Assembly (NCBI GenBank): GCA_964019415.1
Contig: OZ025869.1
Location: 9,159,214-9,223,213, forward strand
From: Ianthella basta
Lineage: Eukaryota; Porifera; Demospongiae; Verongiida; Ianthellidae
DNA: 64,000 bases
Direction: 5' to 3'
Shown: one piece after another, positions 254-44,995 of the stretch
How positions within the stretch are numbered: the stretch's first letter is position 1
How the letters are laid out: every line of letters starts with the position of its first letter
Position numbers and translations under genes: made by a program
The notes under the pieces: model-generated
Database searches by the model: none
What the model saw: only the letters and a program-made list of their open reading frames with translations
Told to the model about the DNA's origin: nothing

Positions 254-298
254 ATGATGAGCTTATTGCAATGCTAGAAGAACAAACGGAAACACAAG
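254..298 (+). CDS. Gene A linker exon 1 (45 bp, phase 1-1)
   Basis: A short exon between a TTACAG acceptor and a GGTTTGTG donor. It reads DDELIAMLEEQTETQ in the frame shared by the other linker exons. Two similar exons at 4145 and 5888 have the same phase, a similar length (45, 42, 45 bp), a shared EEQ core and homologous donor-side intron sequence (GTGAAGCCCA...). It is acidic and hydrophilic, so it probably forms a flexible or helical spacer. The ISL2EU transposon sits only 64 bp downstream. Whether it is constitutively spliced is unknown. Confidence 0.6.
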
Positions 299-6200: not shown

Positions 6201-9200
6201 CTATTTTCAGCAACAGGTATCAGGATACTGTGTAAGAAACATAACAAAAATTACCTAGCTATGGTAAACGCAAATGCACCTTACGTTTGCTTTGGATATG
6301 ACCAGGATGACAGCTTGCCTGGCTCAGGAGAGTAATGTCAATGATGTTAGTGCACTTCTTCTAGCCCTTCAGTAATGATAGTAAAAGATCTCCAAGGTTC
6401 TGTTCAAGTATTGGCCATCTGGGCATCCCAGAAGGCAATGGCAAAGGAAACAATGAATTATGCAAAAGCTAAGAGGCTCATACATGACAATTCACTCCTG
6501 TCCATTACCTATACACATGTTCAGTGCACACAGACTGCAAAGCTGAAAGAGATGCCTCCATCTTTGTATACTTTAATTAATGTTACAATTTAGTGGCTAA
6601 GACATGGGTACGAGGGCTCTACAGCATATAAAATGTCAAGGGCAAGTGCATTTTATATGCTTTAACGCTTGAGTGTGCATATCTTAACCAGTATAGCGCC
6701 TGTTGCTCTAGTAATACACACACTACGCTATTAAACTGTATAAAATAGATACTGTTTAGAGTTCAGGCAGTAAAACTGTCAGTCGGTGTGAGTTAGATGG
6801 AAAATGCTCCCCCGGGTTTGTGCCTAAAGCTCAGTCTGAAGAGATGATGTTGCCACTATTGGAAAGAGAAGTCGACCAGTATTCCTTAGTGAATGTTCCC
6901 AAATGTACGGAACGGTGCAACAACTGGTCTGTGAGCAATTTTGAAGAGTGGCAAAGGGATTGCAAAGGAAGACACCCCGGCAGCGTGATTTGTAGTGATA
7001 TCTTAAGGTCTGCAGACTGCCAGGAGTTGGATGAGGTGCAGTCTTCTTTCATTTTGTTTGAGCAATCCCACCTTTTGCTTTCTGCGTATAAAATGCTGAG
7101 TCCCAAGGGCATGAAATAAAAGCCCTGGGCAATTTATATGTGGGCAGGGTGATTATACTATGCTGAGTATATTATTCATTATCTAATACCTGATAATTGA
7201 CCTGTTGCCATGGCAATCAGTGCTAGCGATACATAAACAATACAATGGTGTGCATGCACCGAAGTGTGCCATACGCACTATATACTGTAGAGCGCTTATG
7301 TTCATTGCTATTGTTCTCTGTTGTCCACTGTCACCTTGATACAGGTGATGGCATGAACTTCATCTCAACATTTGGTTGCAGCAAGGAGACAGTGACTGTT
7401 GAGACAGAAGGAAAAATCACTACAATACGCAGTTGTAATGAAGATTTTGGTATTGCTGGCATATCAATGGAACAGACCATGAACGAGAGGTGGAATTATT
7501 TCGAGGTTAAAATAACGGACACAGTCGATGATGGGGAGATTGGAATAGGACTTGGCCACAAGAACTACCCACTCTGCAACATGCCAGGCTGGGGTATTCG
7601 CAGCATCGGGTATCATGCAGATGACGGTGGATTGTATCATGAGCGTGGATTTGCACGGCTGCATGGACCAACCTGTTCCATTGGAGATACAATGGGGTGT
7701 GGTATAGATTTCACCTCAAGTGCAGATGGCAAAGTTCGGGTGTGGTTTACCAAGAATGACAAGGTGGTTTTTCAACCTCGAACATTGGATCTTCTGGACG
7801 ATTCAGAATCCATGTTCTACCCACTGATATGTATGCGAGGATCAGGTCAGGAAGTTCAGTATGTGGGACATCAGCAGAAACCCTATCCTACTGAGAAAGA
7901 CAGTAAGCTTAAACTGTTATTGACTTCAATGCTTGTAGGGAATATCATGTTCACCAGAATACTTCTAGTTATACAAGGTCATGTGTGTACTATGCAGCAT
8001 GCTGTATCATACTTAACCCTTATGCTTCTCTAGTGAACTACAACAGTAATGTTTGTGTGCCAGATTTAAGATTAATGTACATTCCTGTACCTGTGGAGAA
8101 CATTGTATATTTAATGTTTGGTTATCTATTAAAGCCCCCATTCTGGGAGACACTCTTATATTTTAACTTTATGGGGACCTCTAAAATTTCTGTAGCCCTC
8201 TAATTTTGGCAACAGTACCAAGGTACTGCTGTGTACACCTAGCGAAATGTAATCTAACGATGGTAAACTACCTAAATGTTGTCGAGATTATGCAATAAGA
8301 GTAGCACAGTTCTCGACTACAGCTTTTCTTCATGGGTATTTCTTCCTTGGCAAAGCATATTAAGCGTCTCCAATATTAGGCTCATATATACCTCCTTGTA
8401 GACATGGTATATATCAGCATAAATTACACAATATTATGATGAGCTAGTGGCACCCATTTCATTCAGGGAGCTTTCCATAAATTTGGGGCAGAGAGACTGG
8501 CTGGCTCCAAATTTGAAAGGGGCTGTAATATCTGCCAGATGTAAGTGAATAAATTTTCACATAAATTTTTCAAGGTGAGACTTCTAAACATTACAGACAT
8601 CCCAGCCGTACCTTCATGCTGCGGTCTATTTTGTCCAAATATTATTGTGCGACCTTCTTGTGACAACTTATATAATATAGTATAAATTAAGCCCACACAT
8701 GATAAATGTGACATCCTGGTGACATTCCCTGTCAACTATATTACAGAAATAAACTCCTCTCACATGTATAATTCTCTTACGGTACACATCAGAACTTCCT
8801 CCCGTTCGACTGCAGCTGGTCTGCCCTGTTCTCTGTGAAGCTCCACTAGGCAGATTGCAGTCGTCAGCAACTTGTCTGTGAAACGGTAGCAGATTAGCCT
8901 TGGGCTATCACATAGCAGAACAAAACATTGACGGGTACCTATGGAACATTATGCTCAAAATTTGCTACTGGAATGTTCAGAAGAAATGTACTAGTAGCGC
9001 AAGCCAAACCTAGCTTCGCATAACTTGTCCATTAACTGATGGCTACATGAGACTAAGCCAGACCCATGTGGCCTGACTCCATTCTAGATTATGTCAAGCA
9101 ATGATGTAATCTGAAAATGGAGGCAAGTTACATTGCGGTCTGGCTTGTGAGTGACAAGAATGTACATCCAGCTTTTATCTCGTTCCTAACCAATTGGGTT

Positions 9201-12200
9201 GCTAACTAGCATATGAACATGTTGGGTTACCAGCGTAGATTTTCACAAAACCGATGCAGACAGGGTGCAGATTTTGTAAACAGGGAGCAGATATTTCATA
9301 GTTAGCTGCTTGGCTATTAATGGGAAACAGTATGGACATTTGCCAAGTTTGTTGGATTTTGGAAACTTAATTGTGACATGTACCGTATGTAAGAAGATGC
9401 ACTTATTGACTGCTTGATTCAGTACTTTCTACCTTTGTGTTCTTAAATCAGGCTACTTTGCAAGTGCTTTTGCAATGTCTACTTTCAATGTTTTCATTAT
9501 TATTATGCCAACCAAGCTACACCTGTACAGCCTTTGGCGTTTTGGGAGTACTTGTGTTCATGCTGACATTCATTCATATCTTTGTTTAGGTGACAGAATG
9601 AACTTTATCTCAACGTTTGATACCACCACACATCAGGTAACTGTTAAGAAGGATAGAGAGTTTTCTGTCATACAGTCTCTTAGTGGCCAAACTAGACACA
9701 GTGGTATCAGAATGGAACACGCCATGAATCGAGAGTGGAACTATTTTGAGGTGAAAATTTTGAATACAGTTGGAGATGGAGAAATAGGAATAGGAGTTGG
9801 CCACAAGGATTACCTCCTGTACAGATTGCCAGGCTGGGATGATGATAGCATTGGCTACCATGCAGATGATGGGGGACTGTTTCATGAAGCTGGATTTCCC
9901 GAGCTGCATGGACCAACTTGTACCACTGGAGATAGGATGGGGTGTGGTGTGGATTTCACCTCAAGTGATGACGGCCATGTTAATGTGTGGTTCACAAAGA
10001 ATGGCCAAGTGGTTATCAGCCCTCGACATGTGGATCTTCCAGTTTATGTGGATTCCAAACTTTATCCTCTGATAGGCATGAAGTGGGCAGGCCAGGAAGT
10101 TCGATACTTGGGACACTGGAAGAAAACTCCTCCTACGGAAGATTTTGGTAAGCCTACTGCCATTCAGGTCCAAAGGTCTATCTCATGTGCTAACATGGTG
10201 TTGTACAGTCACCAGTACTATGTTATGTATAATGGCATCTACGCAGGTAAATATTGGCTTGATATAGATGCTGTAGAGGCTTATAGTTGCCTACACACAT
10301 ACATAATCAGACCTGAAGGTTTACATAAATATGGTCTGTTTGTATGACTTTGCAGGTATGCTGTATGACAGTGATGTTGAAGAGGACCCTATCAGTAAGC
10401 CATGCATACAGTGGAATGTTTTTTCTCAATGTAGTGTCCTTGCAGCCCTTTGGCTTGAGATGTTAGCAGTATTATTCAGACTCACTGGAAATATTCCACC
10501 AACACAGTAACAAATGCACTGTGCAAAGAACTGCACTGAATTTATGTAACTTAATGGGACGCCTGTGGGACATGTCCAAAGTAAACAATACACACTGTCG
10601 CTGCAGCCGATTTTAATCTTCGTATTTTCAGCTCTATCTCTTAGGGTATGGATCAGAGTGAAACATATACCATAAATTGGAGAGAGAAAGAGCTATGATT
10701 GCTGTTATTGATGGTTTAGAAGATTGAGAAATATTGCTGCCAGTGTTGCCACTAAATAACACTAAATGCCCAACCTGTCTTAGATGGAACACCACTGACA
10801 GCAAAGACAGGCACCAATTTAATTGTAATTATATTATCTAACTTTTTCTTGTGGAATTAAGTTTTAAACCAATCCTTTTGAGACCTATGGCAAGAAGGCT
10901 CCGACTACTTCACGGTGTTGAAAATGTCCAATCCTATATCTTGGTGAAGTAGCTTTGTGAAATTTATCCCACATACAAAAGTTAGAAACATAACTGTACT
11001 AATCATTTCAATCTTAAGCGCCAAAAAGCAGTCTCTCAAAGAAGACTAGTAAGTGTTTTTGTTGGTGTACATTCACTTTCTTCTCCAGCCAGGCTTATCA
11101 CATGACATTCTAGTGACATTGCTACTCATGCGTCCACAACTACACAATAACTGCAGATGTCATTGGTTCATGCTGCTTGAGCTTGGCTAGGAAATCCAGA
11201 TCTAGATATTCCCGCTTGCTGCCAGCTTCATATTTGTAGTTCTTGGATCACATTTAGGTCAGCCTAGGCCAAAGATCCCTTATAAGCCTTCGAGTTTCAT
11301 GCCAGATGTAATGTTTAACATGACGTACGCACAGTGGGCTCTCGGATGCACTTCACACGCAGGTACTCGAGTAACCACAGAAGCTCTGCAGAAATGTGAT
11401 GAAAGCGCTGGGTTCATTAATTTGTAAATGCAGCAGACATGTCCCAAATGCAGATCACATTTCTGTTTTCATCTACATTGAACTTTATGACAATAATTCT
11501 GTTGATGCGTCTAGTATGTGATCTAACTGTGTTGCATTGTATACAGTTCCAGTTTCACCGAGAGGCAGGATTATGCGATCACTATCTCAGAGGTCAAAAT
11601 GTAAGTGCTGTAACATTAATGACTAACACTGCACAATACACTATTATTCATGCTGCAAACACAAAATGTGACATGTCAAAGTAAACACTCTAAACAAAAA
11701 CACTGTTTGCTTGCAATAGGTGCCTCTGTATGTTTTGCATGTAGCACTCAGTTCCTCATGGTATGGTTTAAGTCCTTCAAGTAATATTTTCTAGTGCTGA
11801 ACATATTTCAATTACCATTACCTTATTTATATCATGCATTCTGTAATTATCTTCTAAGTTCAAGTTTTATATGGTATACAGTACTCATATCATCATGGGT
11901 GGTCTTTTGTTTCACCCTTTCTAGCCTTGCAAAGAACAGTACTACTGCTCAAATGCTTTTCTACATGCATAACAAACCGGTTTATCCAGAGTGTGTGTGG
12001 CGTTTGTATTACATCATCACTTCCTTTTATAGCTTGTAGTATGTACTTGGTCGCTGTGAACTATTTCTACAGTTCTCGGCAGACCCCTTGTCTCTATGAA
12101 GTACAATTAAGCGCAGGCAGGTGGCGAAGAAATAAAACGACAAGGCTCACATCGGTTACCCATGATACAGACATTATTAAGAGGAGAGAAGGGAAACACT

Positions 12201-24200: not shown

Positions 24201-27200
24201 TTCTCTATGGCAACATGGAAGCCTCCGCTGATTAAAAATGGCTGCTATGTGGGGATAGCGAAGAACCGTCTTCATGCTGCTCAGAATAGGCATGCTTTCA
24301 AAAATTATCAGCAACAGATGACATGATTTGGGAAAGTTTGGTAGCAATCCAGCTGCCGCCATCGGATTAGTCTGGTTTGCAAGTGTGCCCAAGCATTTCC
24401 CTCTGGTACACTGAAAGAGTAGCCCATTTCCCAACACCTCTCTCCTGGTAACGCTCTATGGCATAGCGCTGTGCCTCTGAGAGTATGCAGCTACTGTACA
24501 GCTTAGCTAGCTATACACTATAAATAGTACAGAAACTGGAAATAATTAAAATGTCTACAAAACTAATAAAGATGTAGAGATAGCATAAAAAGGACAGAAA
24601 CAAGTAAATGCTGTTACACAGTGGAGCATTAACCATGGTCCCTACATTCAAGGATGTAGGTGACATTCTTGCATGTAGGGACTATGGTTAATGCTCCACT
24701 GTGTAGCAGCCACTTGTTTCTGTTCTTTTTATAGCATCCCTACATCCATACTATTTCTGTAAAAAAAATTTTGTTTGTATTTATATATAGATAGATGATT
24801 GTGCGTGCATGCATACATACATGCATATACATTACCTGAAGCATAACATCAAGCCATACCACACAATCACAATGTGTTATATGTGATCCTCTGTGGTCTG
24901 CATAAATTTACCTTTAAGCTAGAAATAATATAAATTTTCTACAAAATAGTTAAGGATGTAGGGATGGCATAAAAAGGACAGAAACAAGTTACACAGTGAA
25001 GCATTAATCATGGTCCCGACATGCAAGGATGTCGTACCGTATAGTCCTACACCCTTGAATGTAGAGACGATGATTAATGCTCCACTGTGTAACATTTTAC
25101 ACATGTTTACTTGTTTCTGTCCTTTTTATGCCATCCCTACATCCTTACTATTTTGTAGAAACTTTTTTTTTATTTTTTCTAGTTTCTGCACTTTTTATGG
25201 AGCATGAGCTAAGATGCATGATATATTTAACTTCCTTGTGTAGCTCCTGATAAAATTAGCTGCAATTTGCATCTGAGTAATTGTATTGCAATTGAAAATT
25301 CCACACGCCCAATGCCACGCTATAGTCATAGAGCAAGGCGAAGAATTCCACCGTTGTGCAAAACAACGGGAGAAGGAGCCTCTGGACACTGTATGCAGTT
25401 GTTTGCATTGGCACTAGTCATGCCAGTTTCATCCAGTTGAATTATGTAATTTGAAAATGGCATCCGCCTCGCTTGACCAAGTGCTACAGCAGGAATCATG
25501 GTAAATGCCATCTTCTGCAGTAAATTGTGCCACCTTCTAATCTACAAAGGAATACAGCCAGCCAAAAATGGAGCAATATGGTGCAAGAAGTATTTTTGCG
25601 GTCTCGTTGGTTTGTGCACTATCAGAGAAGAAGAAGATGACGAAACATGGGAAATGGCTGCTCTCTACATGTAGGTGCACCTTCACTGGTATGTAAGGTT
25701 AGCTATGTGCACTGTTCAGTCCCCACTTCCTCATGGGAAGCTTCATTTGACGGTTTTCTGTCCTGTTCGGGAGTAGCGCGACTTTTCCGTTGTATTACAA
25801 CATACAAACAACCACTGCCACCTCTACATAGACAGCACTACCATGTTGTCTGATACCAGTTATTGTTTGGCTGGATAGGATTTACCTAGTAATTGCTGCT
25901 GTGTTGAGCTTTCTGATTGACATGTTATGTTCTTCACTGCAATTAGCCTGAGTTGCTGTGGAAGATCTTTGATGCTTGTCTCTTTGGTGAAAAGCTGGTC
26001 ATCACCGATATCCTGGAAGCTGATCTAGATGGCTACCTGCCAAACAAGAAGTTGCTTCCTGGCCGGGAATCTACTGATGGGGCACAAGGAAGTGAAAATA
26101 AGAAAGATAAATCACAGGAGACCTCACTTCTTTCCTACCTGACAGATCGCCCCAAATTGGTGAGTTTCCTTAAGAACAGCTTGATAGGCTGCTTAACAGT
26201 TGCAGTGGTGAAGTGTGAAGTTCTATGTCCTTCATGAATTGCATTTTCATAGGTAGTAGATACACTGTGCATCAATATGTACATTCAGATGTTTAACTCA
26301 ATGGCATGTATTCATAATTCCAAATAGAGCCCACCTAAAATTTTCTAAGTGTGCTGGTGATTCATGTTTTCAGCACTGGTAGACCTTGCGGTAAGTATGG
26401 AAATTTCTAAGTGTGAAGCCTAAATCATGCTTGGCTTAGTAAATACAAGCATTTGAAACTTGTGTTTTCTGCATACATTACATAGGCAAGGGGACACCCT
26501 TGCCCTTGCCTAGGTAATGTATGGGGAAAATGTCAACTATGGATGCTTATATTTACCAAGCCAACATGTTTTTGGCTTCAAACTTGGAAATTTTACTACT
26601 TACCACAAGGTCTACCAGTGCTGAAACAAGTATTTCGAGTTTAAAAACTCGTTGGGCACTGGGGTGCCCCTGAACTTGAATTACTTGCTAGCAATCTCCC
26701 TATGAATGTTCAGTAGTTCCAACTGGTGCCATTCGACTAGCACCAACACTGTACTTGCATTCATAGTGGTCCCCCACTGCATGCCGATCAATGCTGGTGC
26801 CGGTCCCCCTGACTTTCAGCAACTTGCGCTGGTGGTATTTTTCCTTCCATCAAATAGCGCAAACATTCTATTTGCACTCAGGGTGGTCACCCTCGGCAAC
26901 TTGCACTGGTGGTCCATTGTGAACATGAAGCCATACAAATGCCTAAAAGTGAAAACAATATAGGGGCGCCAAAGAATTGGATCACTAGCACGCTTGGAAA
27001 ATTTTAGGTGTGCTCTATTTGGAATTATGAATATGTGCCATTCATCAGTGGATCATTAGAGCTGAGACTACAAGTGGTTATACTGTACTTTTTAAGTCAG
27101 TTACATCTCAGTAGTACGTACAGGTAACTGATCTGCAAATTGTGGCTCAAGCCATGTAGCATGTAGCGAAAGTCTACGAGATAACTGCAGTGACATGAAC

Positions 27201-30200
27201 TTCATTGAATTGTGCCTTGTCCATATTCAACAGTTTTTTAAGCTTGCCAAGCACCCTACCTTGAAGACATTTGTGAGTGAACAATGGAAGGAGCAGGCTC
27301 GCTATGTATTCTGGTATGTTTGTTGGTTAAGACAATGCATGATTGCTTTATTGTTTGGGCATATACATATAGCCTACCTCTGAGATGTGACACCCCTATT
27401 ACCTTGTTCTGTATTGTAGGTTCCACTGTGTATGCATTGAATAACTATTTGTAAATGATACTTAGAAGAAACAGATTGTGAATATATAGTTGTGACAGGG
27501 CAGTATTCTTTGGCCACACAGGTCCAGGCTTGTCTACTACATATTCCAGATGATCATTCTCACCTTTGCTTTTGCCATTGCTGCTCGTCCAGAGCTGACG
27601 GATGACCAGCTCAACAGATATCCCTACCCCTTGGACTATTTCAGAGGGATCTGTGAAGTGCTCTTGTTGCTCATGACACTGGTAAAGATTGTGGAAGAAT
27701 TTGCTGAAGTAATAGTGTAAGTAGCACTGTAATGAGTTAATTTACAGATGTGTTTAATAATGTGATTGAAGCTTTTTGAAATGTAAATTTCTGTCATCAA
27801 GAAGTATCCAAACCCTAACCTTAGCTGGATTGTATGGTAGGAGGACGCTGCACAGACAGTCTCAATAATCATCTATTCATGTGTGACTGAGTGAATTTCC
27901 AAGCACTAAGAAACGCTTAACCAATATTACACATTCTAATAGGCCACCTTTTTGGGTTGATGTGCTTCCCAAGGTGGTTCAGTTGGTGGTGCTGTAAGGG
28001 ATTATTGAATGCTTAGTTGGTTAACTAATTCTAGAATATGTGGCATTGTTGCAAGAGAATGGGTACAGGAATGCTCTCTCTTGTTCCCTTCATAACTCTC
28101 CATTCTGCACTCAATGCAAGTGAGACATGTCCAGTTCATTACATAAGGTGATATGACATGTCAAGGTGTGAATTCCTGCATTGCCATGGTAATGCGAGCA
28201 TTGGCATGTGACCTGTGTGATCTGACAGGCTCTTTAAGCTGAGATTGCTTTATAATATGGTATCTTGCAGCTAGATACGTGCTTAAATACAGTGCAGCCT
28301 TACCTTGCAAGTTTAATCAAACTCTGTTGAGACACAACATCGTTGGCCATTTTCTGGAATGTCAAGGGGACATCACGTGTTATCATGTCTATGAAGAGCT
28401 TTCAGCTAATGCTGTCAGGAAAGTGTCATGTAGTGATCACTAAGATGTTTTCTTGTTGATCAACAGTGAAAGGGTTAGTCAAGTAAATTTTCTGTTTTGC
28501 CATGTACAATAATGTTACCCAAGGTTCCCTATCTCAAGTTGAGTGACCCAATATTTTTGGCACCAACTGTTAGTTGTTTTATTACAATAATTTCAAAGCA
28601 GAATGCTTTAGCAACTTATCCTACATGGATAAATTTGATAGTACAAATGCACATCAGTTGAAACCATTAATTCTCTACTGCCTGTGACTTACCCACAAAA
28701 ACTGCACAGGCATTTATTGCTTTTGCAATCACTTTGGTATCGCCTATGCATCTCTATGTCAGAAGGGATCGTTAGCATGAATTATCCACAGTCTATATAT
28801 AGAAGAGCTCTTTGTCTTTAGTTAGTGCTAGTCTTGTCCTGATCCAGCTTAGTATGTACAAGAACTAAGTTAAAATATGAAGGTCAAAATTGGCCGCCAC
28901 AAAGCCACATCGTTTGCATTCCTCACATGCAAATCTAACTGTGCATAGGTGGAGTCGGATATGTACATGGACCAGATTGATTATGTTATCTGCTCCGTAT
29001 CTGAACTTGATGACCATGTGTAAATTCCTGAATGTGCAAGTTATGTGAGACTTCAACCCTCTGTGTTTTATGCCATCATTACTTATGTATAGGCTATATG
29101 CAATGAGTATAAAGGGTTTATTGATATGCACACACTGTGGGTGAAGCCCAAGAATGTGTATAATTGATGACCCCGAGTCTGAATTGTACAACCAACTTGA
29201 ACCAGAATGTGGAATCTCTAGCCCATGAGATTCACTTGTCAAAATGGCTGTTGTACTATGAATTTAATTCGAACACTGAGTGGCCAATCAGAGCTAATGC
29301 AAGGTTTGTAAAAGCTGTTGTCCTTCACAGCAACTTCATTTCCCAGTGTAACAAAGAAATCCCAGGATAGCAGACAGAAGTACAGCTACGGTACAGTGCA
29401 AAGAAAAGGCAACTGTGAACCTTGAAGTGGTAACGTTTACTAGTTCTTTTTATTGTTTCGCATTTACCAGCTAGCAGTTAAACGTTAACAGTTAGCAGTT
29501 GGGAGTTAATGGTTCACCCTTAACTGTTGATGCTTTATATGACATACATAGAGCATTTGATTACAGCAGCAACAAAGAGAGCAGATTCAAATAGTACATT
29601 GCAAATAGTGAATTGTGCAACTACACCATGAGCGAAGCGTGGCCTTTTATATTATTGTGAACTTTCAGGTAGCAGATTTAGACTATGCAAATGGCAAGAC
29701 ATGTACACAAAGAGGATCTATTCATTATGGGAGTGCCTCATCAGATAAATTACTACATCTTCGGAAAGGAGCTGAGTACTTCACTACCTCAACAGCCATT
29801 TTTCATTACGTTATTACTGATTATCCATTACTGGTTACCAACCAAACGGTAACAGAATGGAGACAATTTATTGGATAAGTGAGACAATTCACTGAAAGTG
29901 TCAAACGACAAATGGAATTAGCATTACACTTTATATGCACTGTACCATAGATCCTTCCATCACTGCCCTCCTACCTTGATTTTTAAATAAAGGTAATGAC
30001 ACAGGGGTTGCTAGTAAGACACCTGGAGTCACTAGTTTCACGCACCAAATCCCACTGCGGAAGGGTCTGGTAGTATTGCATAAACCAACTTGTGCCATAG
30101 GAATGTAATATTTCATAATTGTGGTTAACTCTTGCACAATGTTGTCCGTAGCATGGAATGCCCAAAATTTTATTGTTTTGCTTGTATGTCTCGTTCTTGC

Positions 30201-33200
30201 TCTATTTTGAGAGTGTACCCTAGTGAAGTCACAGGGTCACCAACCAAGCATCCTTCAAGCAAGCCAACGTATGCCTCTAAATTTTAGATCGACATCATCT
30301 AGCAAACAACGAATCTGACTGGTCAGGGCAGGATCTCGTCCTGTACATAAGACTACTGGAGTCACTAGTTAGATACCTGCAAACAATGGTCTTACACCTG
30401 TATGAATATGTGGTGACCATATGAATGTGGTGACCTAACCACATTCAAGGAAACACCCACACATCTTGGTACAAATGATTGGATAACCATATGACAATTT
30501 AGCTGATGCACTCACACATACCTTATTTACTTTTCTTACCTTCCACTATACAGGAGTCGTTGGTCCTATTTGTTAGACTGGACTAACTACATTGAGTTGC
30601 TCACTATTCTCTTCACCCTTTCCATCATTCCCTTTCGAGTGTGGAATCACCCTGGACAGTGGATTGTGACTTCCTTGGCATACTTCTTCAGTGGATTTAA
30701 GATAATTGAATTCATTGCTCTCTTTAGGTAAGTTGTGTTACATAATCTTTATTTATTAGAGAATGATTGCTTTCTATAATATCTAAATTCAGCCTGGGTT
30801 CATGTATGTATCTGCATATAAAATGACTCAAGATACTAATCTGAAGCTAGAATTGCTGCCTTTCATTTGATTTCTGTACAGATGGACTGGTGCATATGTG
30901 CACACACTGTACATCATCATTTCAAGAGACATTGTGAGGTTCATGGCTGTGTTCCTCATCTTGCTGGTCATATTCTCCGGAGGATTTTATTTCTCCCTGA
31001 GGTATGATGATTCATTTGTCACACATCCAGACAATAGCACTTTGATGGGAGGTGGAGTAAACTCTGACTTACAGGCATTGGATGGAGTGGCAAGGCTGCT
31101 CCATGAAGTCTACTTCACAGGACTAAGGGCACTCATTGAGGCCGGCAGCGTACTCAACTACTATGGAGCCAATGGCAGCCTCAGGTATGTGTTGAAGTAA
31201 TGGAGAGGTTTAGCATGGCATAAAACAATAATATTTCCATATGATATGTGCGGTATAACTTTACTGTATTTAATGATATATCTTCAGTTTATCACTAATA
31301 TAACCCCTATTGTACATGTTGTAAAAGCTATACGCCTCCAACACTTAAGATTATGCTGTTGGACTAGTTTGTTAATTCATCTTGCTATCTCTTTTTTCTC
31401 ATCTCCCTTATTCAGGGCACTGAGTGTCATAATCTACATGGTGTTTCTGTTCATTGTTGTCATTGTTCTTCTGAACGTGCTGATTGCCCAGGTGTCCGAC
31501 ACTTACGGCAAGGTCCTCTCAACTGCTGAGGGAATCTATCTGTATCATCAGTGTCGATACATTGCCCGGCTAGAGGCGCAGCAGTTTTATCCTGGTGTGA
31601 TATGCTACCTTTTGCCAAGGTGCTTCGAAAGATGTGGTGGTGCCTGCTTCCGTAGATGTGGTTTTGACCGCTTCCCAACATGCTTGCAGATATGCTGTCT
31701 TATCAGCTGCATTATCCCATTGTGCTTCTACTATTGCTGTGACGTCTGTTTTCCGAGGTGCAAGTTTGACAACATTGTAAGTTATATTACAACTGTGTTG
31801 CTACATTAACTGTATTGCACTCGTAGTTATTTACTACAATAATTACTGTGCCTAATTTCTGCATTAAGTTTAACACAGTGTTGACAAGTTCATGAACTGT
31901 TTGCAGCGAAAGTGTGCCTGATTCTATGTGCCCCTTATTGGGCTATCGACATTCCATTCATGTGTGCAGTCAGTATTATGGCAAACATTAGATCTACTAC
32001 TATAAAAGACACATATGAAGTTGAGGTACATAGCAGGGACCAGCCTTTGTAAGACCTATAATCACAGTGGGTATTGTATTGTGCATGTAACATTTGTCAT
32101 CTGTCCCTCTGTCAATAGTGTTCAAAGGAACGTCAGTGGCCTAATTTAGTTTGGATCGGGAAGAAGCGCAATCAAAAAAACCCACGTTGGGAGTCATTCA
32201 AGAAGAAGGTTGTCTGGTTCTTCACTGTGTGAGTGGAGGTTGCCTTGGAATATTATTATATCTATTCTGGTTGCGATTTAACTGTATACTCGCATATGAG
32301 GCATGTCCTCATTATTTAAATGACCCAATACTGTACTGGTATGGCTACTACATGTGGTAATAGCAATGTGTTGGTTTCTTTGCCAAGTTTCAGGACCCAA
32401 CATTTTGACGTCCAGAAATGGTCACAGCCTTTAAGCCATAGCATGGGATGGATTCGTTTGTAGCAAGTGCACACATGCAAGGTGGACAGCACAGCTCCCC
32501 ACTCTGTCTTTCATCACTGACTGCCCGTATTACTGTTCTTAATGGCTTTGTTAGCAACAATGTTTATAGACATAGGAAGGCGTTATAACCAGCAGTCATG
32601 CACAGTATTATACATGGATAGGTTCTGCTAATACTTGTTTCATTCTGACCGAGCCATATCTGCAGAAATAACAATGAACATGAGGTCATTATATGTCACA
32701 GTGGAAGCCTGCATGCATGCCTACATAGTCCCACATGTGCTTGGTCTGAAGTTAGTTTCAATGCAGTGGCCATTGACACAAGTACCACTTCCTTGTACTG
32801 TTGCAGGTATGCCTTTGATGAAGATGATGACTTGGCTGCAGAGGAGGGCACTCAAAAACTGGAGTGAGTTAACTCAGGATTTAGTTTTGACAAAGTATTA
32901 TAAGTAGTGGGTGTGTGCATTTTTGGTTGGGCGTAGAAAGTTGCACACTTCATACCATTCAAATCCATCTAAGCAAGGGAATATATATATTGATTATGTC
33001 TTGAAATACGAACAGACATCTTGAATATGCACTTTCTCACCTGTCTTGTCTCACAATGCATTGCATAGAGTACTATTAGAGACACTCTCTATGTAGGGGT
33101 GGCCTGAAAATTGGTGACGCCCTAATGGAATTGCCTAAGGACCGAATTCACTGAATCATCGCTAAGTGCCAACAAATCATACTGAGGTTGTATGGAACCA

Positions 33201-36200: not shown

Positions 36201-37423
36201 CTTGGAATGGGCATGTTTCTGGCCTGCCCCCAGCTCTAGAAGAGTTGCATGTACTACTCCACAGTGTTGTGGGCATGAAGCTGAGACACAAGTCTTTGAG
36301 CTCATTGTTGTCAATTGAGTTTGTTCAGTGTGTTCACAATATACTTGGCGTTTACTTAGCTTAATGAATTCTCATGACCTTTGTGAATCACTGTTATGAT
36401 AAGAACAAGTATTTCAAGTTAAAAAAAACTCGTGGGGTGCCGGGGCGCCCCTGAACTCAAACTACTTGCTAACAACTTCCCTGTGTATGTTCAATAGTTC
36501 AGATAGTTGGGTATGCAGCATAGCTGCTGGACTGAAAGATACATCTCGATGCCATAGACTGGGGCTGCAAGAGTTTCAAGTCTCCAGACCAGGAAGTCAT
36601 CCAGTGAAAGCACCCCTACCAAACTGTCAAAATGCTTTGCTGATGCTTTTTGATCTACATAACATTCTGAATGAGGATGTACATGTTTATTAGTGCCTGG
36701 AGTAGGAGTGTACTGACTAAAACCGCTACCCTAAGTGGTAATGCCATGATTTGATTTCTCTCTCATTCGACCTCTGTTGTATTTGGGGCTGTACCTCGCA
36801 GGAGAATAGTTAGATAAGCTTTCTTCTACAATAGTATTACTTAAACATGTTCTAGAAAGAGTTTGCTTTCCTTGGGTACACGGCGAAATACGAAGAATGA
36901 CGATTATGAGCCTAGCAAACAGAGAGCGTCGAGCGCGGCCATTTTATAATGTCTGTCAGTGATAATTGGAGCTCTTTCTCGCAGAAGAGACATTCCTTAG
37001 GCTTTTTATTAGTATCACTCTATTAACACATGTTCATGACCACATTTCGTTCGATTCAAAGACGGAGAAACGCCAATGGAGATGATTTTAAGCTTTGTAA
37101 AGATTGACGTGAGTGCCGCCATTTGCAAAATGACAGAAATATATATACGAACATGAAGCCATACGAATACCTAAATCTGAAAACAATATAGGCCAAAAAG
37201 CTCAGCCAGTTTACTACATGACTGCAATGCAGTTAATGATTTTCTTATATATCAAAGCGGACCTTTGATGTAGGACATCATTGGGCAATAAGGCATTTCC
37301 TGTTCTGTTCTTCTTCCTTCCAGGCACAAGATGGAGGAGGAAGTCCAGAAACTTGCAGATCAACTGCAAGAGAAACTTGCAGACCAACTGCAGGAATTGA
37401 AGTCTCTTGTGCTTAAGAAGTAA
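254..37423 (+). CDS. Gene A: SPRY-ankyrin-TRP cation channel (multi-exon, 5' partial)
   Basis: Twenty-one exons chain with consistent phases: 254-298, 4145-4186, 5888-5932, 7345-7902, 9590-10147, 10356-10394, 13361-13909, 14055-14287, 17281-17442, 18257-18768, 23399-23528, 25947-26159, 27234-27313, 27522-27716, 30554-30727, 30882-31184, 31416-31776, 32119-32228, 32807-32863, 35582-35650, 37324-37423. They give about 1,510 codons and a TAA stop. The protein has three SPRY domains, ankyrin repeats, six membrane segments with a pore loop, a TRP-box-like helix, a cysteine cluster and a coiled-coil tail. By family knowledge it is a tetrameric cation channel, with cytosolic ankyrin and SPRY domains as sensor or partner-binding modules. 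The first in-window exon begins in phase 1, so the start codon and perhaps more SPRY units lie upstream. The ligand is unknown. That all exons form one transcript is inference from phase and order; two adjacent genes (SPRY protein, then TRP) are a less likely alternative, because no stop or start separates them. Confidence 0.82.
391..2224 (+). pseudogene. YqaJ-type nuclease gene of the ISL2EU element, broken
   Basis: The first open part (391-969) has a SAP-like helix-extension-helix (LVQLCKKSGLKSSGKKPELI) and then a segment typical of metazoan YqaJ proteins (SLKAFKSLKAYRYLEDDLV), ending near a probable splice donor (GCAGGTACTAC, about 949). The next part (1056-1367) ends at an in-frame TGA (1365-1367) and resumes in the same frame at 1428. 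A frameshift near 1796 leads into the YqaJ core (1796-2224), with GASGDG, LEIKCPFS and HYMQVQGELG. These match the Asp and Glu-x-Lys metal-binding pattern of lambda-exonuclease-like nucleases. In ISL2EU elements this protein travels with the transposase; its role in transposition is not settled. Confidence 0.8.
2378..3306 (-). pseudogene. DDE_4 transposase domain of the ISL2EU element, frameshifted
   Basis: The minus-strand frames 2719-3306 and 2378-2746 together cover a DDE superfamily 4 transposase core. The expected acidic residues are visible: Asp in MNDSTELYIQRP, Asp in VMADRGFD, and Glu in ERAIGRAKNYR. A one-base shift near 2745 splits the gene between SELW and GGRVSDAM, and an upstream TAG near 3315 separates it from the coiled-coil segment that should join it to the THAP domain. 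The family cuts and pastes DNA at terminal inverted repeats. This copy is inactive as read. Confidence 0.85.
3534..3818 (-). pseudogene. THAP zinc finger, N-terminal part of the ISL2EU transposase
   Basis: Starting at the Met at 3818, the minus strand reads MPVSCSAVNCTNRW, followed by FPADPKRQKQWV, WFPSKHDRLCSAHF and DYVPSLF. This is the C2CH THAP pattern: two Cys near the start, the conserved Pro and Trp, a Cys-x2-His, and a Pro-containing AVPTIF-like end. THAP domains bind transposon ends. The frame closes at 3534, and the segment linking it to the DDE core at 3306 holds a frame change and a stop, so the gene is broken. It is the 5' end of the same minus-strand gene. Confidence 0.85.
4145..4186 (+). 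CDS. Gene A linker exon 2 (42 bp, phase 1-1)
   Basis: A CTGCAG acceptor and a GGTTTGTG donor flank a 14-codon exon reading DVAIAIDEEQSVAQ. It is homologous to the exons at 254 and 5888, and about 300 bp of the following intron match the intron after 5932. This marks a segmental duplication. Confidence 0.6.
4798..5481. mobile_element. Non-autonomous DNA element with ~47-bp imperfect TIRs
   Basis: The left end (4798-4845, TACCGTATGGCCGGAAATTT...) is the imperfect inverse of the right end (5432-5481, ending ...TTTCTGGCGATACAGTA). Both share the GGCGG-GAATTTA-TTTTGGCGGATT core. The interior of about 590 bp has no protein I recognise. A related terminus lies at 5804-5867. It sits in a gene A intron. 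Confidence 0.7.
5804..5867 (-). repeat. Solo terminus of the 4798-5481 repeat family
   Basis: The reverse complement (CAAATGGCCAGATATTTTGG...) follows the left end of the 4798 element for about 60 bases, including the GATTGCTGAAAT stretch. No matching partner end is visible nearby, so this looks like a truncated second copy. Confidence 0.6.
5888..5932 (+). CDS. Gene A linker exon 3 (45 bp, phase 1-1)
   Basis: A CTGCAG acceptor and a GGTTAGTG donor flank 15 codons reading DDAATACHEEQPAMQ, similar to exons 254-298 and 4145-4186. It directly precedes the first SPRY exon visible in the window, which accepts the same phase. Confidence 0.6.
6820..7119 (+). pseudogene. Possible DUF3504/Crypton-like fragment in intron
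   Basis: A 99-codon open stretch contains VNVPKCTERCNNWSVSNFEEW and CSDILRSADCQELDEVQSSFIL. The pattern of a VPK-T---W-V--F--W helix followed by a C--DIL segment resembles the N-terminal part of DUF3504 (tyrosine-recombinase-derived, KIAA1958/QRICH1-like) proteins. The resemblance is partial and from memory. It has no plausible splice sites into gene A, and the downstream catalytic part is missing. Confidence 0.35.
7345..7902 (+). CDS. Gene A SPRY domain exon 1 (558 bp, phase 1-1)
   Basis: The exon runs from a GATACAG acceptor to a GACAGTAAGC donor and encodes 186 codons. SPRY hallmarks are WNYFEVKI, DGEIGIGLGHKNYPL, MPGWG, SIGYHADDGGLYH, GPTCSIGDTMGCGIDF and VWFTKNDKVVF. By eye the pattern is closest to the SPRYD3/RanBP9-type SPRY rather than PRY-SPRY of TRIM proteins. 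SPRY domains are beta-sandwich protein-binding modules. Symmetric phases allow duplication or skipping without breaking the frame. Twin exons lie at 9590 and 13361. Confidence 0.88.
7903..9589 (+). other. Intron between SPRY exons 1 and 2, no gene seen
   Basis: Intronic sequence. Around 8150-8220 it carries the motif CTCTAAAATTTCTGTAGCCCTC, which also recurs in the introns after linker exons 2 and 3 (near 4450 and 6180). No coding domain or RNA gene was recognised. Confidence 0.6.
9590..10147 (+). CDS. Gene A SPRY domain exon 2 (558 bp, phase 1-1)
   Basis: A TTTGTTTAG acceptor and a GATTTTGGTAAGC donor flank 186 codons, exactly the length of SPRY exon 1. Hallmarks are WNYFEVKI, DGEIGIGVGHKDYLL, LPGWD, SIGYHADDGGLFH, GPTCTTGDRMGCGVDF and VNVWFTKNGQVV. 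It is clearly paralogous to the exons at 7345 and 13361. Differences cluster in the first 40 codons and near the C-terminal loop, so the binding surface may have diverged. Confidence 0.88.
10356..10394 (+). CDS. Gene A linker exon 4 (39 bp, phase 1-1)
   Basis: A TTTGCAG acceptor and an ATCAGTAAGC donor flank 13 codons reading MLYDSDVEEDPI. It is acidic and symmetric in phase like the other linker exons, and it sits between SPRY 2 and SPRY 3. Sequence similarity to the other linkers is weak. Removing it would not disturb the frame. Confidence 0.5.
10395..13360 (+). other. Intron before SPRY exon 3, no gene seen
   Basis: About 3 kb of intron. The last ~65 bases before 13361 (TTCATTGCTATTGTTCTCTG...) match the sequence before SPRY exon 1, so the duplication includes flanking intron. 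Near 12708 a TTTTCAG is followed by ACTGAAGCAGCTATTGAAGC, which resembles a linker exon but has no donor. Nothing else was recognised. Confidence 0.6.
13361..13909 (+). CDS. Gene A SPRY domain exon 3 (549 bp, phase 1-1)
   Basis: A TTGATTTAG acceptor and an AACGTTGGTAAGT donor flank 183 codons. Hallmarks are WNYFEVEI, DGEIGIGLGHKNYPL, MPGWGNHSIGYHADDGGLYH, GPTCTTGDRMGCGVDF and VNVWFTKNDKVVF. It is nearer to SPRY 1 than to SPRY 2 in several blocks, such as GHKNYPL and the SKFYPLICM / SMFYPLICM pair. It is the last SPRY before the ankyrin part. Confidence 0.88.
14055..14287 (+). CDS. Gene A exon after SPRY 3 (phase 1-0)
   Basis: An AATTGCAG acceptor and an AATGTAAGT donor flank 78 codons. The frame contains VPWWRDIGFECEEAV, RTHQKYGKWDTSPEV and a helical run to FVQEYAN. 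No known domain was recognised. The composition (Trp-rich start, then amphipathic helices) suggests a structured linker joining SPRY to the ankyrin region. The phase change from 1 to 0 marks the end of the duplicated symmetric-exon block. Confidence 0.7.
14800..15900 (-). mobile_element. Non-LTR retrotransposon reverse transcriptase relic
   Basis: The minus strand reads GVPQGRIWSLLLFDL (RT motif with the GVPQGS-type box), a degraded catalytic region (CYAVDA where YADD is expected), LNSDLERILMFGKKWLLEF and VIGFTLDNKDTWSAHVD. These are the thumb and connection segments of jockey/CR1-like non-LTR elements. Several in-frame stops interrupt it and both ends are lost. It lies antisense within a gene A intron. 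Confidence 0.75.
16326..16737. repeat. Foldback element, ~165-bp arms
   Basis: The left arm (about 16326-16490) begins TGAAAGATAACGTTCGGAAC. The right arm (about 16572-16737) ends in the inverse, GTTCCAAACGTTATCTTTCA. Between these the arms remain complementary with few mismatches (for example CACCGATC / GATCGGTG and CAGATCTTT / AAAGATCTG). The spacer is about 80 bp. It is a MITE-like hairpin in the intron before the ankyrin exons. Confidence 0.85.
17281..17442 (+). CDS. Gene A exon, pre-ankyrin segment (phase 0-0)
   Basis: An ACCTGTAG acceptor and an ATTGTGGTAAGT donor flank exactly 54 codons. The sequence includes FKEFKAPNGKRLE and HIALFFANLLISAVGESRALEFF. It has two predicted helices and could be a degenerate ankyrin-like pair leading into the next exon. 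It joins the phase-0 ends of both neighbours. Confidence 0.75.
18257..18768 (+). CDS. Gene A ankyrin-repeat exon (phase 0-2)
   Basis: A CTTGCAG acceptor and a GTGCAGTAAGT donor flank 512 bp. About three to four ankyrin repeats are visible: NWGANANVHDSDGKTALHL, AEVDVQDNSGDTPLHVAARNG and NGASNSLVNNREETALVTAAVHGN, each with the G-TPLH / A---GN logic. In TRPV/TRPA channels the cytosolic ankyrin stack binds ligands or calmodulin and couples to gating. The repeat number is smaller than in TRPA1 (usually over 14) and nearer to TRPV (about six). Confidence 0.88.
18831..20303. mobile_element. Element with ~272-bp long inverted repeats, nested insert
   Basis: The left arm 18831-19102 (TCTTATTATAATAA...) is inverted at 20031-20303 (...TTATTATAATAAGA), and both arms share matching blocks such as CTCCTTCAATT and AGAGATAGGAAAA. 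The ~930-bp interior holds a second, smaller element (19233-19795). It lies in the gene A intron directly after the ankyrin exon. Confidence 0.8.
19233..19795 (-). mobile_element. Nested DNA element with helix-turn-helix transposase fragment
   Basis: Termini TTGTATTTGTCCGAATAGAG (left) and the inverse-like ...ATATGGACAAATACGG (right, ending near 19795) form imperfect inverted repeats rich in GGCCTCTATT. The minus strand at 19452-19634 reads VVSFKLKAIECAEKMTKEAAATLY, which resembles the N-terminal helix-turn-helix of pogo/CENP-B/Brinker-type proteins (S-KLK-IE-AE-----AA). No DDE domain is present, so it is non-autonomous. Confidence 0.5.
20380..20895 (+). repeat. Left copy of a ~480-bp inverted repeat pair
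   Basis: The sequence GTAGTGCTGTCTATGTAGGG... through TTTTTGGCTGGCTGCATTCC and CAAATTACATAATTAAACCG reappears in inverse orientation at 25400-25862 with roughly 80% identity. It includes a (TTC)n tract at 20602-20655. The protein reading of one frame (GQA---FSNYII--DET) is conserved between the copies, which hints at a former coding element. Confidence 0.75.
21120..21388. repeat. Foldback MITE family A, copy 1
   Basis: A near-perfect palindrome: GTAAGGATGTAGGGATGGCA and AAAAAGGACAGAAACAAGTA on the left are inverted on the right as TACTTGTTTCTGTCCTTTTT and ATGCCATCCCTACATCCTTAC. Further copies are at 21540-21745 (partial), 24540-24785 and 24920-25185. Confidence 0.85.
21233..21890 (+). repeat. 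Direct tandem duplication, ~360-bp period
   Basis: The block from GGTGTAGGACTATA (about 21236) through AATGTAAGGTATCATATTGT (about 21518) is repeated from about 21549 to 21878. The second unit carries an extra ~55 bp with (ATC)n near 21664-21684. The unit contains the right half of MITE family A plus unique flank. Confidence 0.8.
23399..23528 (+). CDS. Gene A exon after ankyrin repeats (phase 2-0)
   Basis: A TTCTTTAG acceptor and a CTCACTGTAAGT donor flank 130 bp. The first base completes a Gln codon from the previous exon. The frame contains YCATVRKTDDDEEELRFEA and VQRLVTQAANCDVDLT. This is an acidic stretch followed by a helix, placed like the linker between ankyrin stack and membrane domain in TRP channels. 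No domain was recognised. Confidence 0.72.
24540..24785. repeat. Foldback MITE family A, copy 3
   Basis: It has the same arms as the 21120 copy (AAAAAGGACAGAAACAAGTA ... CCACTTGTTTCTGTTCTTTT) with a few changes, in the same gene A intron. Confidence 0.8.
24920..25185. repeat. Foldback MITE family A, copy 4
   Basis: The arms GGATGTAGGGATGGCATAAA and TTTATGCCATCCCTACATCC are inverted about a centre near 25050. The centre includes ACCCTTGAATGTAG in inverse orientation to copy 1. Confidence 0.82.
25400..25862 (-). repeat. Right copy of the ~480-bp inverted repeat pair
   Basis: This is the reverse complement of 20380-20895 at about 80% identity by eye, including CAAATTACATAATTCAACTG, TTTTTGGCTGGCTGTATTCC and GTAGTGCTGTCTATGTAGAG. 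The ~4.5 kb between the copies contains the MITEs and one gene A exon (23399-23528), so the pair is either two independent insertions or an inverted duplication. Confidence 0.75.
25947..26159 (+). CDS. Gene A exon, pre-membrane segment (phase 0-0)
   Basis: A CAATTAG acceptor and an AAATTGGTGAGT donor flank 71 codons. It begins PELLWKIFDACLFGEKLVIT, then has a Lys/Asp-rich low-complexity stretch (GSENKKDKSQETS) and ends LLSYLTDRPKL. The low-complexity part may be a flexible insert. Phase 0 at both ends makes it skippable. Confidence 0.75.
26310..27032. mobile_element. Non-autonomous element with ~55-bp TIRs and inner palindrome
   Basis: The left end ATTCATAATTCCAAATAGAG is inverted at the right end CTCTATTTGGAATTATGAAT (to 27032), and the inverse match continues through CCTAAAATTTTC. 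An inner palindrome pairs CAGCACTGGTAGACCTTG (near 26374) with CAAGGTCTACCAGTGCTG (near 26606). The part from 26629 on (AAGTATTTCGAGTTTAAAAA) recurs at 36404 and 56096. Confidence 0.75.
27234..27313 (+). CDS. Gene A exon, pre-S1 segment (phase 0-2)
   Basis: A TTCAACAG acceptor and an ATTCTGGTATGT donor flank 80 bp encoding FFKLAKHPTLKTFVSEQWKE and then ARYVFW. The HP...W pattern just before the first membrane helix is typical of TRPV/TRPA/TRPC pre-S1 regions. The last Trp codon is completed by the next exon. Confidence 0.82.
27522..27716 (+). CDS. Gene A exon with membrane segments S1 and S2
   Basis: A CCACACAG acceptor and a ATAGTGTAAGT donor flank 195 bp, phase 2-2. Hydrophobic helices LVYYIFQMIILTFAFAIAA (S1) and GICEVLLLLMTLVKIVEEF (S2) are separated by a short extracellular loop of about 24 residues with PELTDDQLNRYPYPL. 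That is a voltage-sensor-like half without the S4 arginines of Kv channels, as usual for TRPs. Confidence 0.85.
27717..30553 (+). other. Intron between S1-S2 and S3-S4 exons, no gene seen
   Basis: About 2.8 kb of AT-rich intron. No domain, RNA gene or clear inverted repeat was recognised. Confidence 0.6.
30554..30727 (+). CDS. Gene A exon with membrane segments S3 and S4
   Basis: A TATACAG acceptor and a CTTTAGGTAAGT donor flank 174 bp, phase 2-2. It reads LLDWTNYIELLTILFTLSII (S3, with the DW-NY motif common before TRP S3) and WIVTSLAYFFSGFKIIEFIA (S4), followed by LFR, the start of the S4-S5 linker. There are no regularly spaced positive charges in S4. Confidence 0.86.
30882..31184 (+). 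CDS. Gene A exon with S5 and pore loop
   Basis: A CTGTACAG acceptor and a CTCAGGTATGT donor flank 303 bp, phase 2-2. It encodes a S4-S5 linker, S5 (FMAVFLILLVIFSGGFYFSL), an extracellular turret with a possible N-glycosylation site (DNST), and a pore helix region VARLLHEVYFTGLRALIEAG. The canonical TRPV GMGD-type filter is not present, so the selectivity cannot be inferred. Confidence 0.85.
31416..31776 (+). CDS. Gene A exon with S6, TRP-box-like helix and Cys cluster
   Basis: A TTATTCAG acceptor and a AACATTGTAAGT donor flank 361 bp, phase 2-0. S6 is VIIYMVFLFIVVIVLLNVLI, followed by AQVSDTYGKVLSTAEGIYLY. That matches the S6-TRP helix transition of TRPV-type channels (LLN-LIA---DT---V). After it comes a run with about 15 cysteines in roughly 75 residues (RCFERCGGACFRRC, LQICCLISC, FYYCCDVCF). 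Such clusters can be palmitoylated or redox-active; the function here is unknown. Confidence 0.87.
32119..32228 (+). CDS. Gene A C-terminal tail exon 1 (phase 0-2)
   Basis: A GTCAATAG acceptor and an ACTGTGTGAGT donor flank 110 bp reading CSKERQWPNLVWIGKKRNQK and then NPRWESFKKKVVWFFTV. It is a basic, Trp-containing segment, possibly a membrane-proximal or calmodulin-type amphipathic helix. The donor was chosen because GTGAGT is strong and restores phase with the next exon. Confidence 0.7.
32807..32863 (+). CDS. Gene A C-terminal tail exon 2 (57 bp, phase 2-2)
   Basis: A GTTGCAG acceptor and a CTGGAGTGAGT donor flank 57 bp reading YAFDEDDDLAAEEGTQKLE, an acidic stretch. The donor and about 130 bases of the following intron are homologous to those of the exon at 35582, so this is one half of a tandem duplication. 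Confidence 0.72.
33523..33850. repeat. Foldback MITE family B, copy 1
   Basis: The arms AAAAGGGATTTAGGAATGGC and GCCATTCCTAAATCCCTTTT, plus TTCCTAATTTCCTTGTAGCT and its inverse, form a long hairpin with ends near GTGTATAAAAATTTC / GGAATTTTTATACAC. A second copy lies at 62538-62818. Confidence 0.85.
34015..34335 (+). repeat. Dispersed repeat, copy 1 (partner 63385-63720)
   Basis: Shared blocks with 63385-63720 include AAATGGGG-like runs, GTGGGAAGGAGAA, ATATGAAAAGACAAA, CATCAATTGTTCTT / CATTAATTGTTCTT and CATTAAGATAGG. Both copies lie downstream of a MITE family B copy. Function unknown. Confidence 0.7.
34575..35140 (+). repeat. 57-bp minisatellite, ~8 units plus degenerate end
   Basis: The unit starts GGCATCTGGTGCCCCAGTGA and ends CCCCTGCAAACATTG. 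Units follow from 34586 to about 35010, then degrade with GTGAACTTCACTATCAGTAC. The 57-bp period is 19 codons, so several frames on both strands stay open (for example HWASGAPVNF per unit on plus). It sits inside a gene A intron with no splice signals joining it, so I read it as a repeat and not a protein. Confidence 0.9.
35582..35650 (+). CDS. Gene A C-terminal tail exon 3 (69 bp, phase 2-2)
   Basis: A TGATGCAG acceptor and a CTAGAGTGAGT donor flank 69 bp reading RKMEIEHKKLEDKIEKVLSD and then KLE. This is a charged heptad-like helix, part of a C-terminal coiled coil. The donor and following intron are duplicated from exon 32807. Confidence 0.75.
36404..37190 (+). repeat. Dispersed repeat related to the 26629-26965 segment
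   Basis: The start (AAGTATTTCAAGTTAAAAAA, then CTCGTGGGGTGCC) matches 26629-26730. The end (GAACATGAAGCCATACGAAT ... AAAACAATATAGG near 37150-37192) matches 26920-26965. About 640 unrelated bases lie between, so this copy is longer or has an insertion. A third partial copy begins at 56096. Confidence 0.65.
37324..37423 (+). CDS. Gene A last coding exon, coiled coil and stop
   Basis: A CTTCCAG acceptor is followed by 33 codons ending TAA at 37421-37423. It reads HKMEEEVQKLADQLQEKLAD and then QLQELKSLVLKK. The repeated KLADQLQ units form a leucine heptad coiled coil with exon 35582, a common tetramerisation device at TRP channel C-termini. No AATAAA was noticed close after the stop. Confidence 0.82.
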
Positions 37424-39792: not shown

Positions 39793-39793
<1 letters not shown>

Positions 39794-39871
<78 letters not shown>

Positions 39872-39895
39872 ACGCACACACACACACACACACCA
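39794..39895 (+). repeat. (CA)n microsatellite
   Basis: About 100 bp of pure to nearly pure CA with one CACGCA interruption near 39871, ending in a short (CAC) run. Confidence 0.95.

Positions 39896-41948: not shown

Positions 41949-41951
<3 letters not shown>

Positions 41952-42027
<76 letters not shown>
41952..42027 (+). repeat. (CA)n microsatellite
   Basis: About 75 bp of pure CA. Confidence 0.95.
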
Positions 42028-42029
<2 letters not shown>

Positions 42030-42154
42030 GTAGTGACATATAACACTTGTGCAGCACATGTACACTTTATCGCATACACATGTGTATGTGCACTGTTCGT
42101 GGGCAAGCTCAATTTTCACTGCTATTTAAGTAATTGATACCATCATACACAACA

Positions 42155-42346
<192 letters not shown>

Positions 42347-43837: not shown

Positions 43838-43962
43838 TGGATTGTGTGTGTGTGCATGGTGTGGTGTGTGTGTGGTGTGGAGTGTGTGTGCGTGTGTGTG
43901 TGCGTGTGTGTGCACGTGCGTGTGTGTGTGCGTATGTTTGGTGTGTACGTGCGTGTGTGTGT
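43838..43962 (+). repeat. Imperfect (TG)n repeat
   Basis: TG-rich with CG, CA and GG interruptions (TGTGTGCGTG, GTGGTGTGTG), an older, degraded microsatellite. Confidence 0.85.
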
Positions 43963-44995
43963 TAATGTGTCTAGAGGAACTTGGTGTTAATGCATGGTGT
44001 AGTAGGACTTGACATAGGTAGGTAAGTTGCAGCAAACACCATACTGTGAGTGTAACATGACTGCACCTATCGAGTCGAGGAGGAAAGAATGTAAGTGTAA
44101 TCGCAGCCAGGCCTGATGGAAGGTGCTACATCCAAAGACCTTAAGGCAACGTGTTGAAACAAAACACAACCGAGGTTGTCACTGTCCATAGACCTTTGAA
44201 ATGACTCCGCTGGGAATCGAACCCAAGGTGCCACTTTCTTTCTAGCCTATCTTGTTTCAAAGGTGTAAAGACAGTAACGACATCGATTGTGTCTTGCTTT
44301 GAAGTGATTATACCCAGAATTCTTTCCTTCTCGATCAATTCTACGCAGCAATCGTCCAGTAATCTAGCACCTACAGAGTCATATACTGGACAAGTCTTAA
44401 CACACATATATACATGGGTTGCTTTTTACACGTGGAGTCAGAAGATGTTTATATAAGTGAAATGAAAGTGTGTTTGTGAGTGGGTACATCTGTTCACTTT
44501 TGGGATTGAAGGGTTTCTACCACCTGTGGACCATAGCCGTCACTAGGACGATTGCTCAATGAGGTACACTATGAAGGGTGGGCAGTAGAACATGTGTAAT
44601 GGTGTTGAGTTTGAGTAATGTCTATTATCACAGTATTTTACAATGTTATGTGACATGCATAAAGGAAAAGGTTTCCAACCCTGCTAGGTTACGGCTTCGT
44701 GAAGCACTATATATATAACCAGCCACCCTACACATCATTATAGCCTGCAGTGGGTGTGAAGCACTAGAAGGTGACCTCTGTAGTACTGGTGGGGGACCTT
44801 GACCTTTCATGTGTGTAGTGACCTGCGCCACCGTATATGGGAGCCAGTAGATGCAGTGTTTATTGGTTGTGTAAGAGACAGTCCTCAGCTGAAGCAGTTG
44901 CATCATGCCACAATAACCTTTGAGACACCCATCTGTACTGTATTCAAAAACGTCTTCAAGGGGGAGCATAACTGAGGTTCCAAGAATTAAGGGGG

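Follow-up and report, generated by a model that had tools for sequence, protein, structure and literature searches.

In this DNA we recognize what appears to be one gene, here called copy C, joining an array of SPRYD3-like SPRY domains through a two-exon linker to ankyrin repeats and a TRP-type pore; we put the probability of this reading at about 85%. The window, the whole stretch of 64,000 nucleotides that was analysed (G000:C2:9159214-9223213, part of a 209-Mb genome; window coordinates count from its first letter), holds 16 exons of the gene on the plus strand at 7345-37423, encoding three SPRY domains, the linker, the ankyrin repeats and the six-helix TRP-like pore. When the exons of copy C are joined, all junctions used are AG/GT, the exons are in phase and there are 0 internal stops. 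The exons are:

7345..7902, plus strand: SPRYc exon, phase 1-1, with a Pfam SPRY match
9590..10147, plus strand: SPRYd exon, phase 1-1, best PDB sequence match SPRYD3 (2yyo)
13361..13909, plus strand: SPRYe exon, phase 1-1
14055..14287, plus strand: 'post' linker exon, phase 1 in and phase 0 out, no Pfam match
17281..17442, plus strand: 'pre' linker exon, phase 0-0, no Pfam match
18257..18768, plus strand: ankyrin exon, Pfam Ank_2
23399..23528, plus strand: x234, coding exon of the ankyrin-to-S1 stretch
25947..26159, plus strand: x259, coding exon of the ankyrin-to-S1 stretch
27234..27313, plus strand: x272, pre-S1 exon
27522..27716, plus strand: S1-S2 exon (helices named by eye)
30554..30727, plus strand: S3-S4 exon (helices named by eye)
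30882..31184, plus strand: S5 and pore-loop exon (helices named by eye)
31416..31776, plus strand: S6 (LLNVLIAQVSDTY) and post-S6 exon
32119..32228, plus strand: x321, C-terminal exon
32807..32863, plus strand: x327, C-terminal exon
37324..37423, plus strand: last exon, with a coiled-coil-like end and the stop (37421-37423)
-6291..-5737 (upstream of the window, in window coordinates): SPRYa of copy C, its fourth SPRY
-29118..-21585 (upstream of the window, in window coordinates): u1-u4, four N-terminal exons of copy C

The window holds only the 3' part of copy C; the rest lies 5.7-29 kb upstream of it, and from u1 to the stop the gene measures about 66 kb or more. The pore exons span 27234-31776, and the last exon is also present in the sister copies described below (A at 9094308, B at 9126526). 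With the upstream SPRYa included, the copy C protein matches Pfam SPRY at 3.7e-55 (4 stretches), Ank_2 at 1e-23 and Ion_trans at 2.2e-8; the values for copy B are 9.1e-70 (5 stretches), 3.3e-25 and 1.2e-9. All three families exceed their cut-offs in both scanned proteins, and each of the three SPRY exons of the window exceeds the PF00622 cut-off in a scan of the genome.

The boundaries 7345, 13909, 17281 and 37423 of the initial annotation coincide with ours, and the single SPRY-ankyrin-TRP protein that it proposed gains support from six paralogues, from the phase chains and from relatives that lack SPRY but have the N-terminal exon and the linker on either side of its site. Its three SPRY domains are those in the window, but the gene has a fourth (SPRYa), its sisters have five and gene D has one. 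Its extension of the gene back to position 254 has been dropped: the ORFs at 361-2221 encode SAP and YqaJ domains and weakly match a viral alkaline exonuclease, probably belong to a mobile element and are no part of the gene. In copy C they separate SPRYa from SPRYc, in the place that SPRYb occupies in the sisters. That the SPRY domains are SPRYD3-like agrees with the best solved structure for SPRYd (9592-10146), which is 'SPRY domain-containing protein 3' (2yyo, 5.2e-23); RanBP9/10 are the next PDB matches. SPRYD3, the closest SPRY by sequence, is not a channel, unlike the product of the SPRY-TRP gene. A repeat at about 17.8 kb, once read as an exon (x178), was rejected; its frame is closed in some copies and similar stretches occur elsewhere. 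An Rfam scan of the window gave no family at gathering score.

We compared the window exons with a 223-kb stretch containing the window. It contains three tandem units on the same strand, which share the order SPRY exons, 'post', ankyrin, x259 and pore exons; 'pre' is likewise present in all three. A fourth SPRY-bearing gene, D, lies on the same contig:

about 9044.6-9094.4 kb, C2: unit A, five SPRYs (a-e)
about 9099.5-9126.6 kb, C2: unit B, five SPRYs (a-e)
about 9128.0-9196.6 kb, C2: unit C, the window's copy, four SPRYs (a, c, d, e)
C2:8827589-8836374: gene D, one SPRY

Each unit model is one open frame (A, 17 exons and 1772 aa; B, 18 exons and 1797 aa; C, 17 exons and 1615 aa plus stop; the counts exclude the N-terminal exons and, in A, the last exon). 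Intron phases are identical exon by exon across A, B and C, the models being built on conserved GT-AG sites. Upstream, u1, u2 and u4 are present in all three and u3 in B and C, where u1-u4 also join SPRYa in phase; B and C share another conserved block, u0, which is a candidate exon. We take A, B and C to be tandem duplicates of a multi-SPRY gene. On another contig (C12:626094-627689, minus strand), exons with scores identical to those of the S3-S6 exons of D are probably a partial segmental copy of that gene.

Two further paralogues, E and F, share a chromosome with A-D and are encoded on its minus strand:

5312123-5312452, minus strand: E ankyrin exon
5388312-5388635, minus strand: F ankyrin exon
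5294107-5302432, minus strand: E pore exons
5347454-5361909, minus strand: F pore exons

In the parts of these loci that were examined, u4 (42 bp) and 'post' (245 bp) are separated only by a 71-bp intron, and their junction is of phase 1. None of the 32 genome-wide SPRY matches (33/33 candidates scored) lies near E or F. Since E and F have this 71-bp phase-1 intron, we place the SPRY exons of A-D inside an intron of a TRP gene. Genome-wide, 'post' has six matches at E up to 0.1. They are genes A-F, each with a TRP pore downstream on the same strand; four are preceded by SPRY (A-D) and two (E, F) by u4 and the 71-bp intron. The u2 donor is present in E and missing in F, so F may be decaying.

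More distant relatives of the pore occur on C17 and C18. Pore identity to B is 71% for E, 65% for C17 and 55-56% for the three C18 rows (in an alignment without F). In a tree of 10 pore sequences the C17 and C18 loci fall outside (100/100), while D, E/F and A/B/C form a trichotomy, so that gain of SPRY in A-D and its loss in E/F are both compatible with the tree. Over the 15 kb examined, the C17 locus shows ankyrin and pore but lacks 'post', and its best SPRY match reaches no more than E 0.46. The ankyrin-TRP paralogues E, F, C17 and C18 are of the same pore family as A-D, with u4 and 'post' in E/F, but no SPRY was found in them. One genome therefore holds channels that lack SPRY (E, F), have one (D) or have four or five (A-C), a natural series for the effect of a SPRY array on a TRP channel. 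With the pore as query, 144 matches at exon level (E up to 0.01) were obtained across many contigs, C3, C5, C10 and C20 among them, and the host genome appears to hold a large TRP expansion.

In a tree of the 15 SPRY exons, type a stands alone, b groups with d and c with e (the d and e groups being open forks). This suggests that the array grew by duplication of a two-exon block. Values of dN/dS, calculated by NG86 without a significance test, are 0.20-0.71 for SPRY (13 comparisons), 0.22-0.27 for the pore and 0.17-0.46 for the ankyrin exon (three each); they are 0.76-0.99 for 'post', 0.43-1.29 for 'pre', 0.50-0.90 for x234 and 0.45-0.70 for x259 (three each). SPRY and pore look to be kept by selection, and the linker exons 'post' and 'pre' seem to evolve fast, with no clear constraint. 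A SPRY-linker query of a protein database returned 78 proteins, each of which carries a precomputed SPRY domain; linkage to TRP was seen in none. Nine are at least 95% identical to SPRY exons of this genome and come from the same or a close assembly (P0007 is the window's own), six are 70-95% identical and 63 lower. Among proteins from other sequence sets, P0012, P0010, P0006 and P0008 are 72-84% identical to SPRY types a, d, c/e and D. A lone SPRY exon (C12:814760-815329, minus strand) is 82% identical to SPRYa of B and appears to be a stray copy; the 787-aa single-exon ORF downstream of it is GTPase-like by eye. Single-sequence structure prediction of SPRYd gave no usable model (pLDDT 31).

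SPRY is a peptide-docking fold in RanBP9/10, SPSB and TRIM proteins. By analogy, the array, encoded by one (D) to five phase 1-1 exons lying between u4 and 'post', where an ankyrin-TRP gene would have its phase-1 intron, should form a multivalent cytoplasmic docking surface for a protein or peptide. Binding would be passed through the linker and the ankyrins to the S6 region, and the pore would be opened or placed. We tentatively propose that docking on the array gates the pore. With the same reserve, A-D may be a TRP subfamily in which the SPRY array serves as stimulus reader and partner binding gates calcium entry. Gating through the ankyrins is a guess, and pure anchoring is about as likely. 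Indeed, one gene whose array just tethers the channel, determines its location or controls its turnover, without a gating role, is a serious contender, although we hold it at somewhat under even odds. The docking known from RanBP9/10, SPSB and TRIM would suit such an anchor, and the SPRY-less E and F keep their ankyrin and pore exons. The fast linker is in keeping with it too; its dN/dS points to weaker constraint than a gating linker should show, which counts against gating. If the gating proposal is right, each subunit would carry 4 or 5 SPRYs, or 16-20 per channel if tetrameric, and a receptor design would have arisen from one symmetric exon placed in a channel gene and then multiplied.

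It is improbable that copy C itself is decaying and weakly or not expressed, with A, B and D as the working genes. SPRYb was not found in it and the probable mobile-element ORFs lie in its place, in a gene stretched to the length given above; against this, its splice sites are intact, its frame is free of internal stops, and dN/dS of C versus B is 0.29 for SPRY c, 0.40 for d, 0.32 for e and 0.53 for a. The database protein P0031 is a b-type SPRY, 84% identical to that of B, and P0011, P0014 and P0015 match Ba, Bd and Cd. P0031 lies on a contig of 154581 bases, and the longest contig of the other three is equally long. Going by this length, another assembly or haplotype may contain the SPRYb of copy C.

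The initial annotation had named 13909-17281 as the weak point of a one-gene reading. The gap from 'post' to 'pre' is 2993 bp in C, including repeats found elsewhere in the region, but 479 bp in A (9067802 to 9068282), 851 bp in B and 317 bp in D. A phase-0 donor on 'post' meets a phase-0 acceptor on 'pre' in A, B and C. The 'pre' exon lacks an ATG in copy C, and in A and C a stop codon in frame lies at its very acceptor, so that it must be joined by splicing to an upstream exon. Similarity between the gaps mostly adjoins the exons; the main internal stretch, 26 residues that are 62% alike in A and B, was not seen in the A/C, B/C, A/D or B/D comparisons and is possibly a small exon. Two neighbouring genes duplicated together, a multi-SPRY protein ending at about 14.3 kb and an ankyrin-TRP protein starting at about 17.3 kb, are very unlikely: the gaps of C and B contain two and one AATAAA/ATTAAA motifs and the 26-residue stretch lies inside the A/B gap, but A and D have 0 such motifs, the gaps in D, A and B are short, the phases of 'post' and 'pre' match, and u4 and 'post' are joined in the SPRY-less paralogues, so that exons of the TRP gene bracket the SPRY exons. 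The short gaps in A, B and D, together with E and F, strongly support one gene, and we would expect a single transcript to run across the linker.

The pore appears to be TRP-like, and the nearest pores, at distant E values, are those of Chlamydomonas TRP1 and TRPV. Ion_trans scores 38.2 bits in B and 34.1 bits in C against a Pfam cut-off of 25; this family also takes in non-TRP channels. The NCBIfam trp model TIGR00870 matches at 2e-13 with 49.3 bits, far under its cut-off of 498.75. A nine-row pore profile gave CrTRP1 (2.2e-7), TRPV2 (1.8e-6) and Inactive (5.1e-6) as best PDB matches. TRPV1 and TRPV6 also rank among the top ones, but for TRPV2, TRPV1, TRPV6 and Inactive the E values are no better than about 1e-6. 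TRPV-type channels and Chlamydomonas TRP1 (PDB 6pw4) share with the SPRY-TRP gene the six-helix Ion_trans unit and N-x-L-I-A in S6, and they too have N-terminal ankyrins; they differ in having no SPRY array and are distant in sequence (E about 1e-6 to 1e-7). TRPA1 is absent from the best 60 of 111 PDB matches of the pore profile, and in another search its best stretch was the ankyrins.

The S6 N..IA motif is present in 9/9 aligned pore rows. In the presumed TRP-helix W column (placed by eye), A-D have R, E has Q, one C18 row (C18a) has Y, and C17 and two C18 rows (C18b, C18d) have W. Among the rows listed in PMC9242649, W stands at this position in TRPM, TRPC, TRPN1 and TRPS, R in TRPA1, Y in TRPY and A in TRPVL; R in A-D is thus compatible with a TRP channel. 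Metagenome homologues of the pore (P0002-P0004, 411-559 aa) are 46-50% identical to the B pore over the aligned part and indicate that the family is present outside this genome; their contigs of 1555-2011 bases are too short to show SPRY. A structure prediction of P0002 from three-row input gave no usable model (pLDDT 40). Residues 1230-1797 of B gave no match at E 1e-3 in the protein database (7162 full-length candidates); P0002-P0004 were recovered with a shorter query.

The view of the initial annotation that no described TRP subfamily carries SPRY agrees with searches of the open-access full-text literature (subscription papers and annotated eukaryote protein sets being outside their scope), in which none of the listed titles and opening lines of abstracts describes a SPRY-bearing TRP channel; nor did the papers searched yield a description of SPRY laid out within an ankyrin-TRP gene. 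The main texts of PMC9242649, PMC3890488, PMC7385117 and PMC11526382 do not mention SPRY, and the three SPRY passages found in PMC3194816 all concern ryanodine receptors. According to PMC7385117, TRP channels have diversified greatly in a freshwater sponge and group there with TRPA and TRPML.

The ryanodine receptor resembles the SPRY-TRP gene product in carrying several SPRY domains on a cation channel. It has MIR, RIH and RyR domains, of which scans of B and C at E up to 0.1 showed none, whereas the SPRY-TRP gene has ankyrins and is much smaller. To our knowledge, SPRY and a cation pore are otherwise paired solely in these far larger receptors. Elsewhere, at C14:107353-112275, lies a 1921-aa ORF with several SPRY matches that may encode the ryanodine receptor of this genome. 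Two repeats were also observed in the window: a 57-bp tandem repeat (7.6 copies, 34580-35012) in the last long intron of copy C, and long CA/TG dinucleotide arrays at 39786-47002, downstream of the gene.
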